NCBI RefSeq assembly: GCF_001465345.1 | Contig: NZ_CP013655.1 | Span: 1,220,313 to 1,252,612 of the forward strand | DNA length: 32,300 bases | Direction: 5' to 3' | Source: Enterococcus rotai | GTDB taxonomy: Bacteria; Bacillota; Bacilli; Lactobacillales; Enterococcaceae | In this document: positions 1,491 through 22,915 of the stretch, piece after piece | Numbering within the stretch: position 1 is the first letter of the stretch | Layout of the letters: each line of letters starts with the position of its first letter | Notes under the pieces: model-generated | What the model saw: the letters and a program-made list of their open reading frames with translations, nothing else | Databases searched by the model: none | What the model was told of the DNA's origin: nothing | Program-made: the position numbers and the translations under genes

Positions 1491-3980
1491 ATGGATGAAT
1501 TATTTACAGAAAGTGCCAAGGCAGTCTTAGCCATTGCACAAGAAGAAGCAAAATATTTTAGGCATCAATCTGTTGGATCAGAGCATTTGCTATTGGCATT
1601 AGTTTTGGAGCCAAATGGAATTGCTGGGAAATCATTGCGCCAGTTGAATGCTGATAAAAACGATATTCGTGAAGAAATCGAACACTTAACGGGTTATGGT
1701 ACTGTAAAAGCCTATCCTAAAGGTTCATACTTGCCTTATTCTCCTCGTGCAAAGCAAATTTTTGCATATGCTGGTGATGAAGCCAAGCGTTTAGGTGCAC
1801 CAAATATTGGTACAGAACATATTTTATTAGGGTTATTAAGAGATGAAGATATACTAGCATCACGTATTTTATTGAATCTGGGCTTAAGTTTATCCAAAAT
1901 GCGCCAGCTTTTAATGAAAAAAATCGGTATAACAGATCCACAAATGAGTGGTAATGTAGGACGTCGAAGAAATAATCAAGCTCAAAAGGCAACGCCAAAA
2001 GGAACACCAACATTAGATTCGTTAGCACGTGATTTAACAAAATTAGCTCGTGAAAAAAATCTTGATCCAGTAGTTGGACGTTCACAAGAAGTTAGACGTT
2101 TGATTCAAATTTTAAGCCGTCGTACAAAAAATAACCCTGTTTTAGTTGGAGAACCTGGTGTTGGTAAAACAGCGATTGCTGAAGGGTTAGCACAAAAAAT
2201 CGTAAATGGTGAAGTGCCAGAAGATATGCAAGAAAAACGCTTGATGATGTTGGATATGGGCGCTTTAGTAGCTGGTACTAAGTATCGTGGAGAGTTTGAA
2301 GATCGTCTCAAAAAGGTAATCGATGAGATTTACCAAGATGGCGAAGTCATTTTATTTATTGATGAATTGCATACTCTGATTGGTGCAGGTGGTGCTGAAG
2401 GTGCAATCGATGCATCAAATATTTTAAAACCAGCACTTGCAAGAGGTGAGTTGCAAACAATCGGTGCAACAACATTAGATGAATATCAAAAGTATATCGA
2501 AAAAGATTCTGCTTTAGAACGACGCTTTGCTCGTGTACAAGTTGATGAACCAACACCAGAAGAGGCAGAAGAGATTCTAAAAGGGTTACGATCTCGATAT
2601 GAAGAACATCATGGTGTGGAGATTACAGATGATGCACTTCATGCAGCAGTTCAATTATCTGTACGCTATATCAATTCTCGTCAGTTACCAGATAAAGCAA
2701 TCGATTTGATGGATGAGTCTTCAGCTAAAGTTCGCTTGGATTTAGCGGATGAACCTTCTGAAATCAATAACTTACGTTTAGAAATTGCTCGTTTGGTTCA
2801 AGAAAAAGAAGAAGCCATTCAATCTCAGTCTTTTGAAAGCGCAGCTAGATTACGTCAAAAAGAGAAAAAATTAGCTCGAAAATTAGAAAATATTCTCTTA
2901 TTAGAAGAAAAAGAGGCTTCTGGTTACGCAAATCGGGTAACAGAAGAAGATGTTGCGAATGTTGTTTCACAATGGACAGGTGTACCTTTACAGCAATTAG
3001 AGAAAAAGGAAAGTGAACGATTGCTTGAATTGGAAAGTATCTTACATCATCGAGTAGTCGGACAAGATGAAGCGGTTCAAGCTGTGTCGCGTGCGATTCG
3101 CAGAGCCCGTAGTGGTTTGAAAGATCCAAATCGACCAATTGGTTCATTTATGTTTTTAGGACCAACCGGTGTTGGTAAAACAGAACTTGCAAAAGCTTTA
3201 GCTGAAACCATGTTTGGTAGTGAGGATGCTCTTGTTCGGGTAGATATGTCTGAGTTTATGGAAAAATACAGTACTAGTCGTTTGATTGGTTCCCCTCCAG
3301 GTTACGTCGGGTATGAAGAAGGCGGTCAGTTAACCGAAAAAATTCGTCAAAAACCGTATTCTGTTATTTTACTGGATGAGGTAGAAAAAGCTCATCCTGA
3401 TGTCTTCAATATCTTGTTACAAGTGTTGGACGATGGTCACTTAACAGATTCTAAAGGACGAAAAGTAGACTTTAGAAATACAATTTTGATTATGACATCA
3501 AACATTGGCGCAACGGCGATTCGTGATGAAAAAAATGTTGGTTTCAATGTTCAGGATCTAACGAAAGATTACGGTGCAATGCAAAAACGGATCATGGAAG
3601 AGCTGAAAAAAGCCTTCCGCCCAGAATTTTTGAACCGTGTGGATGAAACAGTTGTTTTCCGTTCATTGGATCAGGAAGAAATTCACGAAATCGTGAAAAT
3701 CATGAGTAAATCGATTATTCAGCGTTTAAGAGAACAGGATGTTAATGTAAAAATCACAGCAGCAGCGATTGAAGTGATTGGAAAAGTCGGTTTTGATCCA
3801 GAATACGGTGCACGCCCAATTCGTAGAGCTTTACAAAAAGAAGTAGAAGATCGTTTAAGTGAAGCATTACTTTCTGGTCAAATTCATCTTGGAGATAAAG
3901 TGACGATTGGCGCAAGTAAGGGCAAGATTACATTAAATGTTAAATCACCCAAACCAGAGCAAGTATTACAAACAATTTAA
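1491..3980 (+). CDS. clpC: ATP-dependent Clp protease ATPase subunit ClpC
   Basis: ClpC is a Hsp100 AAA+ unfoldase that feeds damaged or adaptor-delivered proteins to ClpP in the cytosol. The 829-residue protein has a double Clp N domain (about 1-145) and a first AAA+ module with Walker A GEPGVGKT (about 220-227) and Walker B DELHT (about 291). A coiled middle domain with a UVR-like segment (about 420-460) is the feature that separates ClpC from ClpB and ClpE. The second AAA+ module has GPTGVGKT (557-564) and LLDEVEKAH (about 629), and a VGF loop (about 684) is the ClpP-docking tripeptide. It starts with ATG behind GAGGAGG, overlapping the end of ctsR's control region. Nothing is missing. Regulation is through the upstream CtsR operator. 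Confidence 0.97.
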
Positions 3981-3998
3981 AGCTAAAATCAATAATTC

Positions 3999-4035
3999 GC
4001 TGTGCAAAACGAATCTGTTTTGTACAGCTTTTTTT
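3999..4035 (+). terminator. ctsR-clpC terminator
   Basis: Stem GCTGTGCAAAAC with GTTTTGTACAGC (one mismatch), loop GAATCT and a run of seven T. Confidence 0.92.
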
Positions 4036-4057
4036 CTTAAAAAAAAGTAAGCGAACA

Positions 4058-4095
4058 CTCTTTATTTTGTGAAAAATGAGCGTTAAAATAAAGAG
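4058..4095. repeat. 11 bp inverted repeat upstream of the trhP promoter
   Basis: CTCTTTATTTT (4058-4068) and AAAATAAAGAG (4085-4095) are perfect inverted copies 16 nt apart. No U-tract follows on either side, so it is not a standard terminator. It ends 6 bp before a good -35 box and could be an operator. The function is unknown. Confidence 0.5.
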
Positions 4096-4101
4096 AGTCT
4101 A

Positions 4102-4130
4102 TTGGAAAGTTTGTGAACCTGTGCTACTAT
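4102..4130 (+). promoter_or_regulatory. Promoter for the structured leader and trhP1-trhP2
   Basis: -35 TTGGAA (4102-4107), a 17 bp spacer, and an extended -10 TGC-TACTAT (4125-4130). Transcription from about 4137 would give a leader of about 340 nt before the first gene. Confidence 0.65.
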
Positions 4131-4210
4131 AAAACAGTTGTGAGAAGACTGTGTAAAAAGATAAAAGCATTGCTGTTAGATGAATTTGTAAAAGGATTGA
4201 ATGATTCTGT

Positions 4211-4331
4211 TCAGCTTTTGAGATATCTAGCTTCATGGGCTAGCTCTTCGGAAAAAAGATAAATATGAATAGTGGCAAAAAACACCACCATCCCTATTTC
4301 CTATTTTTCAGTCAGAGCTGAACAAGCCCAT
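4211..4331 (+). ncRNA. Candidate structured RNA element, copy 1
   Basis: This is the first unit of a tandem pair with a period of 121-122 bp. After the shared lead TCTAGCTTCATG, an outer stem pairs GGGCT-AGCTCT (from 4237) with AGAGCT-(GAACA)-AGCCC (ending at 4329), leaving a 5 nt bulge. Inside, TCGGAAAAAAGATAAA faces TATTTTTCAGTC, with GAAAAA/TTTTTC pairing. An apical hairpin GTGG/CCAC closes it. The same layout with different paired bases occurs in copy 2. I do not recognise it as a named RNA family. The strand is inferred from the downstream genes and the promoter. Confidence 0.65.
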
Positions 4332-4453
4332 TCAGCTTTTAAAATTATCTAGCTTCATGAACCAGCATCTCGGAAAAAAGATAAAATTAGCCTGTGACAA
4401 AGAACGTCACATTCAAATTTCCCTATTTTTCAGTCGATGCTAAGCGGGTTCAT
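4332..4453 (+). ncRNA. Candidate structured RNA element, copy 2
   Basis: The second unit keeps the unpaired blocks TCTAGCTTCATG, TCGGAAAAAAGATAAA and CCTATTTTTCAGTC. Its outer stem is GAACC-AGCATC with GATGCT-(AAGCG)-GGTTC, again with a 5 nt bulge on the 3' side. Six base pairs differ from copy 1 by compensatory changes. The apical hairpin is TGTGAC/GTCACA. A third stub (TTCAGCTTTTAAAGGAGG, from 4453) repeats the unit's opening and merges into the ribosome binding site of trhP1. No terminator hairpin with a U-run is visible, so any control would act on translation or RNA stability. Confidence 0.65.
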
Positions 4454-4477
4454 TCAGCTTTTAAAGGAGGATACAAA

Positions 4478-5398
4478 ATGATAGAACTTATTGCGACTGC
4501 TGAATCTGTTGAACAAGCAGATGCGTTATTAGCAGTAGGGGTAGATACTTTATACATTGGAGAAGAGATGTTCGGGTTGCGTTTGCCAACGTCATTTTCT
4601 CGTGAGGAACAGCGTATTATTACAGAAAAGGCCCATCATGCAGGAAAAAAAGTGACTGTTGCGCTAAATGGGATCATGCATCCGGAAAAAATGAAGAAGG
4701 TCCCGGAATATTTGACTTTTTTACAAGAAATCAATGTTGATCAAATAACTGTTGGAGATCCAGGGGTAGTATTTGTTTTGCAGCGTGATGGAATCGATAT
4801 TCCGTATATTTATGATGGAGAAACCTTAGTAACTAGCTCTCGTCAAATTAATTTCTGGGCAAAACGTGGATCGATCGGTGCAGTTTTGGCTCGTGAAGTT
4901 CCTTTTGAAGAAATGAAAGCAATGAAGGATAATTTGATGGTTCCAGCTGAGGTCCTTGTGTATGGTGCTACATGTATTCATCAATCAAAACGACCATTGT
5001 TGCAAAATTACTATAATTTTACTAAAAATGATGAATCAGCCAGTAAAGAGCGTGGCCTATTTATATCTGAGCCTAAAAAAGAAGAAACGCACTATTCCAT
5101 TTATGAAGACAGTCATGGTACCCATATTTTTGCAGATAATGATGTAAATTTAATTGGTGAATTGGACAAGCTTCATGAACATAATTACACAAAGTGGAAG
5201 CTTGATGGCATTTATGCGCCTGGAGAAAATTTTGTGAACGTTGCAAAGCTATTTGCAGATGCTAAGGAAAAAATAGAAGCTGGACTTTGGTCGAGTGAGC
5301 AAGCACAAGTGGCAATTGAACAAATAGAAGCTCTTCATCCAGAAAATCGTGGTTTAGATATCGGGTTCTTTGATTTGGATCCAGACGAGATAAAATAA
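4478..5398 (+). CDS. trhP1: U32 family protein, TrhP1/YrrN-like (tRNA 5-hydroxyuridine synthesis)
   Basis: This 306-residue U32 'peptidase' family protein matches the size of B. subtilis YrrN. In that organism the YrrN/YrrO (TrhP1/TrhP2) pair is needed for prephenate-dependent 5-hydroxylation of U34 in certain tRNAs. The TIM-barrel start MIELIATAESVEQADALLAVGVDTLYIG is typical of the family. Only one cysteine of the family cluster region is present (YGATCIHQS), so on its own it should not hold the Fe-S cluster seen in its partner. The ATG at 4478 follows AAAGGAGG by 7 nt; an upstream GTG in frame lies inside the structured leader and is rejected. The second U32 gene starts 14 bp downstream, so the two are an operon. 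The activity is inferred from family and pairing. Confidence 0.85.
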   Translation: MIELIATAESVEQADALLAVGVDTLYIGEEMFGLRLPTSFSREEQRIITEKAHHAGKKVTVALNGIMHPEKMKKVPEYLTFLQEINVDQITVGDPGVVFVLQRDGIDIPYIYDGETLVTSSRQINFWAKRGSIGAVLAREVPFEEMKAMKDNLMVPAEVLVYGATCIHQSKRPLLQNYYNFTKNDESASKERGLFISEPKKEETHYSIYEDSHGTHIFADNDVNLIGELDKLHEHNYTKWKLDGIYAPGENFVNVAKLFADAKEKIEAGLWSSEQAQVAIEQIEALHPENRGLDIGFFDLDPDEIK

Positions 5399-5412: not shown

Positions 5413-6654
5413 ATGACAAATGAACGAACACTGAAGCGTCCTGAGGTCTTAGCACCAGCAGGGACGCTAGAAAAACTAAAAACAGCTATTCACTATGGCG
5501 CCGATGCAGTCTATATTGGTGGCAATGCTTACGGTCTACGTAGTCGTGCAGGAAATTTCACAAAAGAAGATATGATTGAAGGAGTAGCTTTCGCCAACGA
5601 ACATGGAGCAAAAGTTTATGTAGCAGCAAATATGGTTACGCATGAAGGAAATCAAGAAGGAGCAGGAGACTTTTTCAGAGAAATTCGTGATGTTGGGATT
5701 TCAGCAGTCATTGTTTCTGATCCAGCTTTGATTGAAATTTGTGCAGCGGAAGCGCCAGGCTTGCCGATCCATTTATCTACACAAGCATCAGCGACAAACT
5801 ATGAAACATTAGAGTTTTGGAAAAACGAAGGATTAGAACGTGTGGTGTTAGCACGTGAAGTATCAATGGACGAAGTCGCAGAAATCCGCAAAAATACAGA
5901 TGTGGAAATTGAAGCGTTTATTCATGGGGCAATGTGTATTTCTTATTCTGGTAGATGTACGTTGTCTAATCATATGTCGATGCGGGATGCGAATCGTGGT
6001 GGTTGTTCACAATCTTGTCGTTGGAAATACGAGCTTTATGATATGCCTTTTGGCGCTGAACGTACAAGTTTGACTGATAAAGGTGAAGTTGAAGAAGAAT
6101 TTTCGATGAGCGCAGTGGATATGGCAATGATCCAACATATTCCTGAATTGATCCAAAATGGTGTTGATAGCTTTAAAATCGAAGGCCGAATGAAGTCGAT
6201 TCACTACGTTTCTACAATAGCAAATGTCTACAAAAAAGCGGTTGATACGTATATGGAAGATCCTGAAAATTATGAGTGCAAACAAGAATGGATCGATGAG
6301 CTTTGGAAAGTAGCGCAAAGAGAGCTTTCAACTGGTTTTTATTACCATGTACCAACCGATGAAGAACAGTTATTTGGAGAACGTCGCAAGATCCCGCAAT
6401 ATAAATTTATCGGGGAAGTGATGGCGTATGATCCCGAAACAAAAGTCGCAACGATTCGTCAAAGAAATCATTTTAGTGTAGGCGACGAAATTGAATTTTA
6501 CGGTCCTGGGTTCAAACACTTCCATCAAACAGTAGATGTTATGTATAATGAAGAGGACGAGTCAATCGATCGAGCACCAAATCCAATGATGATTTTAACA
6601 ATGCCAGTTGAAGAACCAGTAGTAGTTGGTGATATGATTCGTAAAAAGAAATAA
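5413..6654 (+). CDS. trhP2: U32 family protein, TrhP2/YrrO-like (tRNA 5-hydroxyuridine synthesis)
   Basis: A 413-residue U32 family protein of the YrrO/TrhP2 type. The signature segment around residues 172-204 carries four cysteines (C175, C182, C198, C202) in the pattern GAMC...GRC...GGCSQSC, expected to bind a Fe-S cluster. A C-terminal beta-barrel-like part (about 335-413) with GEV and VGD motifs follows. In B. subtilis and E. coli this family uses prephenate to make 5-hydroxyuridine at position 34 of tRNA. The ATG is preceded by AAGGAG with 10 nt spacing, right at the stop of trhP1. Older annotations call such genes collagenase-like peptidases, and I see no basis for a protease role here. 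Confidence 0.88.
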   Translation: MTNERTLKRPEVLAPAGTLEKLKTAIHYGADAVYIGGNAYGLRSRAGNFTKEDMIEGVAFANEHGAKVYVAANMVTHEGNQEGAGDFFREIRDVGISAVIVSDPALIEICAAEAPGLPIHLSTQASATNYETLEFWKNEGLERVVLAREVSMDEVAEIRKNTDVEIEAFIHGAMCISYSGRCTLSNHMSMRDANRGGCSQSCRWKYELYDMPFGAERTSLTDKGEVEEEFSMSAVDMAMIQHIPELIQNGVDSFKIEGRMKSIHYVSTIANVYKKAVDTYMEDPENYECKQEWIDELWKVAQRELSTGFYYHVPTDEEQLFGERRKIPQYKFIGEVMAYDPETKVATIRQRNHFSVGDEIEFYGPGFKHFHQTVDVMYNEEDESIDRAPNPMMILTMPVEEPVVVGDMIRKKK

Positions 6655-13428: not shown

Positions 13429-13656
13429 GAATCACTGCGACTGCTACGCAGAGTAGATGATGAACAGTACTTGGCGACCGAAGGGAGAGAAGTAACCGTA
13501 CTAGGAATCACTGCGACTGCTACGCAGAGTAGATGATGAACAGTACTTGGCGACCGAAGGGAGAGAAGTAACCGTACTAGGAATCACTGCGACTGCTACG
13601 CAGAGCAGATGATGAACAGTACTTGGCGACCGAAGGGAGAGAAGTAACCGTACTAG
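13429..13656. repeat. Three-copy 76 bp tandem repeat
   Basis: Exact units at 13429-13504, 13505-13580 and 13581-13656, each starting GAATCACTGCGACTGC. Copies 1 and 2 look identical; copy 3 has one visible change (AGAGTAGATG to AGAGCAGATG). Each unit contains a small hairpin CTGCG-7 nt-CGCAG and an AGTAC...GTACT pair. There are no spacers, so it is not CRISPR. It falls between the pplA terminator and the fmnB promoter. Confidence 0.95.
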
Positions 13657-13789
13657 GAATCACCCAATGCTTAACTCGCAAAAAACAGAGGTAACTGTAT
13701 CTAGAAAAGTAAATGTCGGTCAAAAGAATAGCCCAACAGGCTCTGCCAGAGCAGATGATGAAAACAGTACAAGGCGACTGCAAGGAGCG
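13657..13789. repeat. Degenerate continuation of the 76 bp repeat
   Basis: GAATCAC begins a fourth unit at 13657 but then diverges. AGAGGTAACTGTATCTAG (13687-13704) resembles the unit end AGAAGTAACCGTACTAG. CAGAGCAGATGATGAAAACAGTAC with AAGGCGACTG (13743-13789) resembles its middle. These look like older, decayed copies next to fresh ones. From 13790 to the fmnB start I see only a weak promoter-like region. Confidence 0.7.
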
Positions 13790-21455: not shown

Positions 21456-21480
21456 CCTGATTCCTCCAATTATAATTAAT

Positions 21481-21520
21481 AAAACAAAAAATCCATTCAG
21501 ACAATATGCCTAAATGGATT
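21481..21520 (-). terminator. Leader terminator (attenuator) of the ABC operon
   Basis: Minus strand: a 13 bp stem AATCCATTTAGGC / GTCTGAATGGATT (two G-U pairs), loop ATATT, then a T-rich tract TTTTTGTTTT. It lies about 25 nt before the ATG of the binding protein gene, within the leader, so it must be overcome for expression. The upstream segment AGACAAT (minus strand, 21571-21565) can pair with ATTGTCT in the 3' half of this terminator. Confidence 0.85.
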
Positions 21521-21663
21521 GATAAAAGTCGTAAGATAAACACTTCTTCTTTTAGCCACTTAGGATTGTCTACGTGGCGTTTGTTCAGTACAAAAAGCTT
21601 TAGCCATCATAGATACAAAAACAGGTTTTTGCTGTTTGTACCCATGATTTCATGAATACAAAA

Positions 21664-21720
21664 CTATCTAAAGTAGCTAAAGTAAGCTTTATTCAGTTGT
21701 GAGTTGATTAAGTGTGTCAT
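21664..21720 (-). CDS. Aromatic-rich leader peptide (18 residues)
   Basis: A short reading frame MTHLINSQLNKAYFSYFR-stop begins with ATG 21720, 6 nt behind a strong GGAGGG. Four of its last six residues are Tyr or Phe (Y13, F14, Y16, F17). It starts about 25 nt into the predicted transcript and ends 144 nt upstream of the leader terminator. Its Phe-Ser codons TTTAGC can pair with GCTAAA downstream (minus strand, 21604-21599), as region 1 pairs with region 2 in classical attenuators. I infer ribosome stalling at Tyr/Phe codons when these amino acids are scarce. No T-box consensus is visible in the leader. Confidence 0.7.
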   Translation of the reverse strand: MTHLINSQLNKAYFSYFR

Positions 21721-22676: not shown

Positions 22677-22915
22677 ATGCAAAAACTATCTGAAAAATGA
22701 CAAAGCAGGAGCGAAATATTGTCCGTTCCGGTTTTTAATAGGGAAACAAAAGTAGAGACGCACGAGAAATTTTCAAGAGCACATTCTATTTTTGGTTTTT
22801 TTTTGCCTAAAAACTGCAAAAAATGCTCAATATTACAGATATTTAATATTTGTAATATTAAAGAAATATTTTCGGTTAGTGTTTTGATAGACTTTTAATT
22901 AGAGGAGTGAAGAGC
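22677..22915 (+). ncRNA. Long 5' leader of rpoB
   Basis: About 239 nt of untranslated leader. It contains a 14 bp AT-rich hairpin (22829-22842 with 22846-22859, loop TTA) and a possible longer-range GAGCA/TGCTC pairing enclosing a T-run (22789-22803). None is a standard terminator. A Lacto-rpoB RNA motif is known before rpoB in Lactobacillales and this leader is a candidate for it, but I cannot match the consensus by eye. Confidence 0.45.

Follow-up and report, generated by a model that had tools for sequence, protein, structure and literature searches.

Introduction

ERIC and REP/BIME elements fold into imperfect hairpins and occur in repeated copies, and REP elements are tied to Y1 transposases. 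In Enterococcus faecium, MLVA typing makes use of 121-bp VNTR repeats that occur in variable tandem number. Small interspersed repeats that fold have been described in Streptococcus pneumoniae as BOX, RUP and SPRITE (PMC3049150). BOX elements contain internal modules in variable number, and that account reports over-representation of the three families between convergent genes and few clear links to functional classes of the flanking genes (PMC3049150). The same text gives a length of 127 bp for ERIC and also describes BIME (PMC3049150), and a second source covers the folding of ERIC (PMC2267715). That source presents Efa-1 of Enterococcus faecalis as a structured intergenic repeat of 163 bp, found in 65 copies and composed of a pair of adjacent stem-loops (PMC2267715).

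Here, we describe a hairpin unit that occurs twice in the leader of a U32-peptidase-family gene of Enterococcus rotai, within a window (the whole stretch of DNA analysed) of 32,300 nt. With a length of 117 nt and many dispersed copies, it falls within the class of small interspersed repeats, defined by units of less than 200 bp and many dispersed copies. Compared by description, the unit is like BOX, RUP and SPRITE (Croucher 2011) in its small size, folding and dispersal, but it abuts the Shine-Dalgarno (SD) sequences of codirectional genes; BOX is an A-B-C composite. On the same descriptive basis, Efa-1 (Petrillo 2008) is likewise a structured Enterococcus repeat, although longer and built of two stem-loops. 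ERIC and REP/BIME, again by description, are also imperfect, intergenic and repeated hairpins, but ERIC and REP belong to another lineage. The E. faecium VNTR repeats are alike in variable tandem number and in unit length. Efa-1 and these 121-bp repeats may be relatives, so that part of the repeat family may have been published before under a different name. Titles and abstract openings in the literature yielded no recognised description of the unit, and one of four core strings occurs in literature text, in an unrelated Plasmodium paper. The SD-hugging position is a new feature among the small interspersed repeats compared here by description. We read the unit, with a probability of about 0.6, as a MITE/BOX-like interspersed hairpin repeat that shows an unusual bias toward positions immediately 5' of strong SDs.

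A tandem array in the leader of a U32-peptidase-family gene

The features of the window that are relevant here are given below; trhP is the name that we presume to apply to the U32-peptidase-family genes.

67-854: eight tRNAs (Rfam)
3999-4028: terminator-like site ahead of the promoter (scan)
4102-4130, + strand: predicted promoter TTGGAA-17 nt-TACTAT of the U32/trhP-like gene (motif recurrence at loci of the genus)
4210-4222, + strand: remnant 3' tail TTCAGCTTTTGAG of a lost, more 5' unit (read by eye; direct repeat 4210-4224; similar remnants in orthologous leaders)
4225-4341, + strand: hairpin repeat unit 1 (covariance model R1, 133.3 bits)
4342-4346, + strand: 5-nt A/T spacer between units 1 and 2 (sequence)
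4347-4463, + strand: hairpin repeat unit 2, nearest to the SD (R1, 128.6 bits)
4465-4470, + strand: SD AGGAGG abutted by the array, 1 nt past the end of unit 2 (sequence)
4478-5398, + strand: U32-peptidase-family gene, trhP1-like (Pfam PF01136, E 2.2e-54)
5413-6654, + strand: second U32-peptidase-family gene, trhP2-like (PF01136 and PF16325)
21476-21680, - strand: Enterococcus sRNA_2410 (Rfam)
22695-22749, + strand: Lacto-rpoB (Rfam)

The two units are of equal length and start 122 nt apart; their scores come from R1, a covariance model built on 21 units at eight loci, both of these units included. Tandem Repeats Finder reports 4210-4465 with a period of 122 and a score of 285, and a repeat search of the window recovers a 120-nt pair with 73% identity. 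The array at 4225-4463 is the sole array of R1 units in the window. Both surroundings fold more stably than dinucleotide shuffles, 4199-4340 with a z of -2.29 and 4330-4476 with a z of -3.57. In context, the minimum-energy fold of unit 2 contains the outer stem given below, and that of unit 1 adopts an alternative outer pairing with the upstream remnant GTTCAGCT in place of the GGGCT-AGCTCT stem.

The initial annotation of this DNA, made from the sequence alone, had described two adjacent units with compensated stems. Direct reading, the R1 matches and the tandem period bear this out: six double changes keep the pairing (GGGCT-AGCTCT/AGAGCT-(5 nt)-AGCCC versus GAACC-AGCATC/GATGCT-(5 nt)-GGTTC), and the 5-nt bulge is constant. 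The shared blocks, taken at that time to be unpaired, are for the most part paired in the consensus fold of 21 units (GAAAAA with TTTTTC, AAAAT with ATTTT). What had been read as a third stub at the ribosome-binding site belongs to unit 2, as its 3' arm; a genuine stub does exist, namely the remnant at about 4210-4222, upstream of unit 1. The motif of the proposed promoter (few variants allowed) lies upstream of the trhP-like gene in 20 of 22 genus genomes, with or without the repeat, although a consensus promoter scan of 3900-4520 listed no + strand promoter. The closeness of the array to the ribosome-binding site, also pointed out there, turns out to be typical of the repeat across this genome. 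The statement that no known family was recognised agrees with Rfam: the window leader gave no match at curated thresholds and, down to E 10, sub-threshold hits only, and further Rfam searches with units returned no match to a unit, one of them listing sub-threshold hits only.

Dispersal of the unit

A DNA search of the E. rotai genome with 4199-4470 gave 59 matches (best 40 of 125 candidates scored), and R1 detected at least 149 units at E up to 0.01 (best 150 candidates scored). At a threshold of 36.9 bits, which leaves out weaker rows that are mostly opposite-strand shadows, 177 units are present across 83 stretches around R1 matches. They are grouped in 96 arrays, comprising 39 single units, 40 doubles, 12 triples, 4 quadruples and one array of six; none of 94 clusters is of mixed strand. 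Spacers of 5 nt, as in the window, account for 49 of the 68 short spacers within arrays of this genome. The ten array genes to which an identity was assigned (trpB, dnaA, serS, map, lgt, V-ATPase subunit A, codY, hslV, tsf and glyQ) have no common function. A search for plasmid or phage carriage with one unit as query returned no match. One array lies directly ahead of a gene that, from its N-terminus, is presumably TnpB-like (L081, the same place as L003).

The trhP-like gene is present in all 22 genus genomes, and the state of its leader varies among them. Full units precede it in nine (L122, which is the window's own, and L123, L124, L128, L129, L131, L132, L136 and L137), and eight retain a decayed unit or a 3' arm only, e.g., ..CATTCAGCTTTTAAAGGAGG. 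The remaining five (L139-L143) have no trace of a unit, and their AGGAGG SD lies shortly past the -10 region. These data bear on the suggestion, made in the initial annotation, that the array is a selected RNA structure and possibly a tandem aptamer of the trhP operon. The array is indeed structured and sits behind a conserved promoter, and a conserved core with covarying helices is confirmed. However, the unit is a dispersed repeat beside unrelated genes rather than an element specific to trhP, an outcome that the initial annotation itself had named as refuting its proposal; at trhP itself it is reduced to remnants or absent in 13 of 22 genomes, and it matches no Rfam family. An aptamer or riboswitch dedicated to this operon is thus extremely improbable, and was rejected on the grounds of dispersal, unrelated host genes and full units in only nine genomes.

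Position relative to Shine-Dalgarno sequences

Downstream of 75 of the 96 arrays there is an SD together with a start codon that opens an ORF of 50 codons or more (gene starts here and in Streptococcus assigned by simple rules rather than annotation). The SD begins 5 nt from the unit end in 54 of these, 4 nt in 13 and elsewhere in 8; the offset at the trhP array is 1. The SD reads AGGAGG at 62 of the 75. When ORFs of roughly 100 codons and longer in these stretches and in the window are compared, with starts set by a simple rule, AGGAGG precedes 57 of the 64 genes that lie behind an array and 41 of the 177 that do not. Within arrays, the SD-proximal unit tends to fit the model better: it outranks the SD-distal one in 38 arrays versus 17, the two being tied in 2 (Wilcoxon p 3e-4; one common rank is shared by all units that are not among the best 150).

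An alternative explanation is a 5'-UTR module that the host retains across its genome, in which hairpins 4-5 nt before the SD stabilise the mRNA or tune translation, perhaps by protein binding to the conserved core UCGG(A/G)AAAAAGAUAAA / UCCUAUUUUUCAGUC. The pre-SD position and codirectionality at 75 of 96 arrays argue for such a module, as do the superior fit of the SD-proximal unit, the strong covariation across the family and the occurrence of the core in Streptococcus as well. It is nonetheless unlikely in our estimation: the ten host genes have no function in common, and the trhP leader carries only remnants in eight genus genomes and nothing in five. Turnover and base-pair statistics, which also bear on this explanation, are considered in the following sections.

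Eight of the other 21 arrays run, by our reading, into a second repeat module of about 79 nt, and several of the remainder seem by eye to end against a convergent gene's stop codon. This second dispersed module, CTTTGAAACACAGTGAA..GTTGTTACCATATGTT, precedes or follows arrays and gives them a composite, BOX-like make-up (37 BLAST matches, L039-L121). By eye, it resembles a 76-nt tandem repeat at 13429-13663 of the window (3.1 copies, 99% match), diverged copies of which are found in the E. rotai stretches L063, L073 and L091.

Gain and loss of units at orthologous loci

Unit-free sites that possess an SD are also found ahead of hslV (L289, L300, L301, L302, L305 and L306) and fabD (L283). The unit-free short gaps at these two genes come mostly from the same outgroup of five genomes, with arrays or remnants elsewhere; fabD loci L276, L280 and L282 were left out, and the gap at hslV locus L288 is negative. 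At fabD locus L284, a 138-nt gap has no unit by eye and is not a clean empty site. Together with the unit-free trhP leaders, these sites indicate that an SD can exist at the three loci without the repeat, and they give no support there to the idea that the element brought the SD with it. One outgroup fabD leader carries a different tandem repeat (L278, 858-1489; 104 nt, 6.1 copies, AAGGAG within the unit), for which Rfam gave no match.

The sister genome G007 contains 194 R1 matches (E up to 1e-6) in 66 stretches. Both flanks were found there for 76 of the 96 arrays, and the 20 without a usable flank pair, which need not be empty sites, are omitted from the turnover counts. The gap is equal within 8 nt at 19 of the 76 loci and differs by more than 8 nt at the other 57, many being off by about one unit. 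Such turnover of array length weighs against a 5'-UTR module maintained for the host. One clean empty site was found in G007 (L069: ..cagatttt / attttaggagg, the slash marking the place where E. rotai carries a unit); its flanks are only 77% and 84% alike, more diverged than most, and the tandem ATTTT that it contains means that it could be a deletion footprint. Inspection of four further short gaps revealed native sequence without a unit at L091 and retained unit parts at the other three. The scarcity of empty sites in the sister genome suggests that new insertions are rare now.

Relatives in other genomes

R1 matches all 22 genomes of the genus, with 3 to at least 150 units each, and 48 of 105 genomes of the family, in 7 of 17 genera. 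With a streptococcal model, matches appear in 98 of the 395 genomes from the order, which represent 9 of 80 genera (best nine or fewer candidates per genome scored). Among the matches listed by a pattern scan are Enterococcus ureasiticus, ureilyticus, termitis, moraviensis, caccae, crotali, quebecensis and plantarum, and many Streptococcus species. A pattern hit in a metagenome-assembled genome titled Aminicenantes had no match to the model, looks like chance and was discarded.

Placement differs beyond this genome. In five other genomes of the enterococcal family, representing four genera (six best loci each, with some overlap), most arrays are not SD-adjacent. In one genome of this family, a TPP riboswitch (Rfam, 71.9 bits; L384, 1358-1447, - strand) lies close to a unit. 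The 62 streptococcal matches are non-independent rows in which dnaJ recurs; in 13 an SD-like sequence lies upstream of the unit only and the start codon just past it, in 5 the SD falls between the unit and the start codon, in 2 no SD is seen, and 42 have no start within 40 nt. The hairpin sits between an SD-like sequence and the start at L185, L214, L179, L177, L162, L218 and others; from their N-termini, we take the streptococcal host genes to be dnaJ, purB, alaS and others. With a hairpin in this place, initiation may have to bridge it.

Covariation and constraint

The best 150 of the 177 E. rotai units, in an alignment fitted to the model and with nearly constant unit length, have 94.9% of cells paired and double changes at 24 of 31 pairs. 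Their covariation is 0.447; shuffles give 0.201, and slid controls no more than 0.122. In Streptococcus, where the alignment was fitted more freely than that of E. rotai, 94.2% of cells are paired and 26 of 31 pairs have double changes (62 matches at 32 pattern-scan loci, E up to 0.1).

Structured RNAs that pair on the mRNA strand are expected to have more G.U than A.C. Set against this expectation, which is taken from general knowledge of structured RNAs, the core-anchored helix 3 gives G.T versus A.C counts of 32 and 33 in E. rotai, 51 and 57 in G007, and 19 and 13 in Streptococcus (p 0.38); the core-anchored helix 2 gives 35 and 31 in E. rotai, and the whole A2 alignment 102 and 132. Contrary to a reading of no excess, streptococcal matches fitted to R1 have 36 G.T versus 11 A.C. 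Counts for the inner helix (30 and 50 in E. rotai, 24 and 52 in G007, 38 and 22 in Streptococcus) were not used, as its anchoring yields mostly non-pairs. The absence of a G.U excess on the mRNA strand in Enterococcus counts against a 5'-UTR module, whereas the excess of G.T in the fitted streptococcal alignment counts in its favor.

Constraint after insertion looks weak. Across 27 orthologous unit pairs (same length, at most 10% different, drawn from the best 150 units per genome, a choice that favours intact pairs), 36 pair disruptions are seen versus about 49.5 expected randomly, a deficit of about 2 sd. Changed sites in the same 27 pairs amount to 64 of 1674 paired and 89 of 1478 unpaired positions. 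The lower rate at paired sites and the deficit in disruptions, the latter again in line with a 5'-UTR module, make some local constraint possible.

Covariation might also arise without selection. Template switching can correct long quasi-palindromes by copying one arm from the other, and slippage can expand or delete units. The equality of G.T and A.C in anchored stems points in this direction, as do the perfectly complementary 5-nt helix-2 arms of 74 of 132 units and the arm remnants, which deletions would leave. Neither the dispersal of the unit nor its position at SDs is explained in this way, however, and the 5-nt bulge and internal loops of the core are kept although arm correction should erase both. 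We regard this explanation as quite unlikely. Because G.T and A.C are about equal in the anchored stems and constraint is weak, the covariation was probably set during propagation or by arm correction, and less by a role in each gene.

Propagation of the repeat

The preferred reading, an interspersed hairpin repeat favoring SD-adjacent sites, would work as follows. The unit would be short and probably non-autonomous, of the MITE/BOX/ERIC kind. In the E. rotai genome, it occupies, and presumably inserts into, the short interval that separates a strong SD from a transcription start or from a stop codon upstream, its 3' end usually lying 4-5 nt ahead of the SD. At an occupied site, rapid gain and loss of units gives tandem arrays (one to six units here) and arm remnants, and the unit closest to the SD tends to have the best family fit. 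Arrival would depend on an SD-seeking insertion process. The folded state, as DNA or as either strand, would matter for propagation over any gene-specific RNA function, and any influence on how well the host genes are translated, or on how stable their mRNAs are, would presumably be secondary.

Tentatively, and at less than even odds, the insertion process might be that of a mobile hairpin homing to SDs. AGGAGG (CCTCCT on the other strand) would be recognised, the unit placed directly 5' of it and fresh units added on the SD side, so that arrays would become polarised; streptococcal relatives can even lie downstream of the SD, ahead of the start codon. We know of no insertion system with an SD target. 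By eye, the unit ends ATCTAGCT...AGCTTTTA have only AGCT in common as inverted ends, and neither a terminal inverted repeat nor a target-site duplication was clearly seen, the one clean empty site being ambiguous at ATTTT. A mobilising enzyme was sought in the Y1 transposase family and none was found: the genome has a single Y1 match, which carries an internal stop and offers little support for a Y1/RAYT mobiliser.

Implications

The repeat family is present in high copy number and changes fast; relatives occur in Enterococcus and Streptococcus as well as elsewhere in the order, yet no Rfam family matched it. Its covariation carries a warning, in that covariation among paralogous copies can mimic a riboswitch. 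Its location prompts the question of how ribosome-binding sites come to have a repeat beside them. The family remodels the 5' leaders of core genes, including dnaA, and related species provide a natural series, from no unit through remnants to one or several hairpins ahead of the same ribosome-binding site, for measuring the effect of leader structure on translation.
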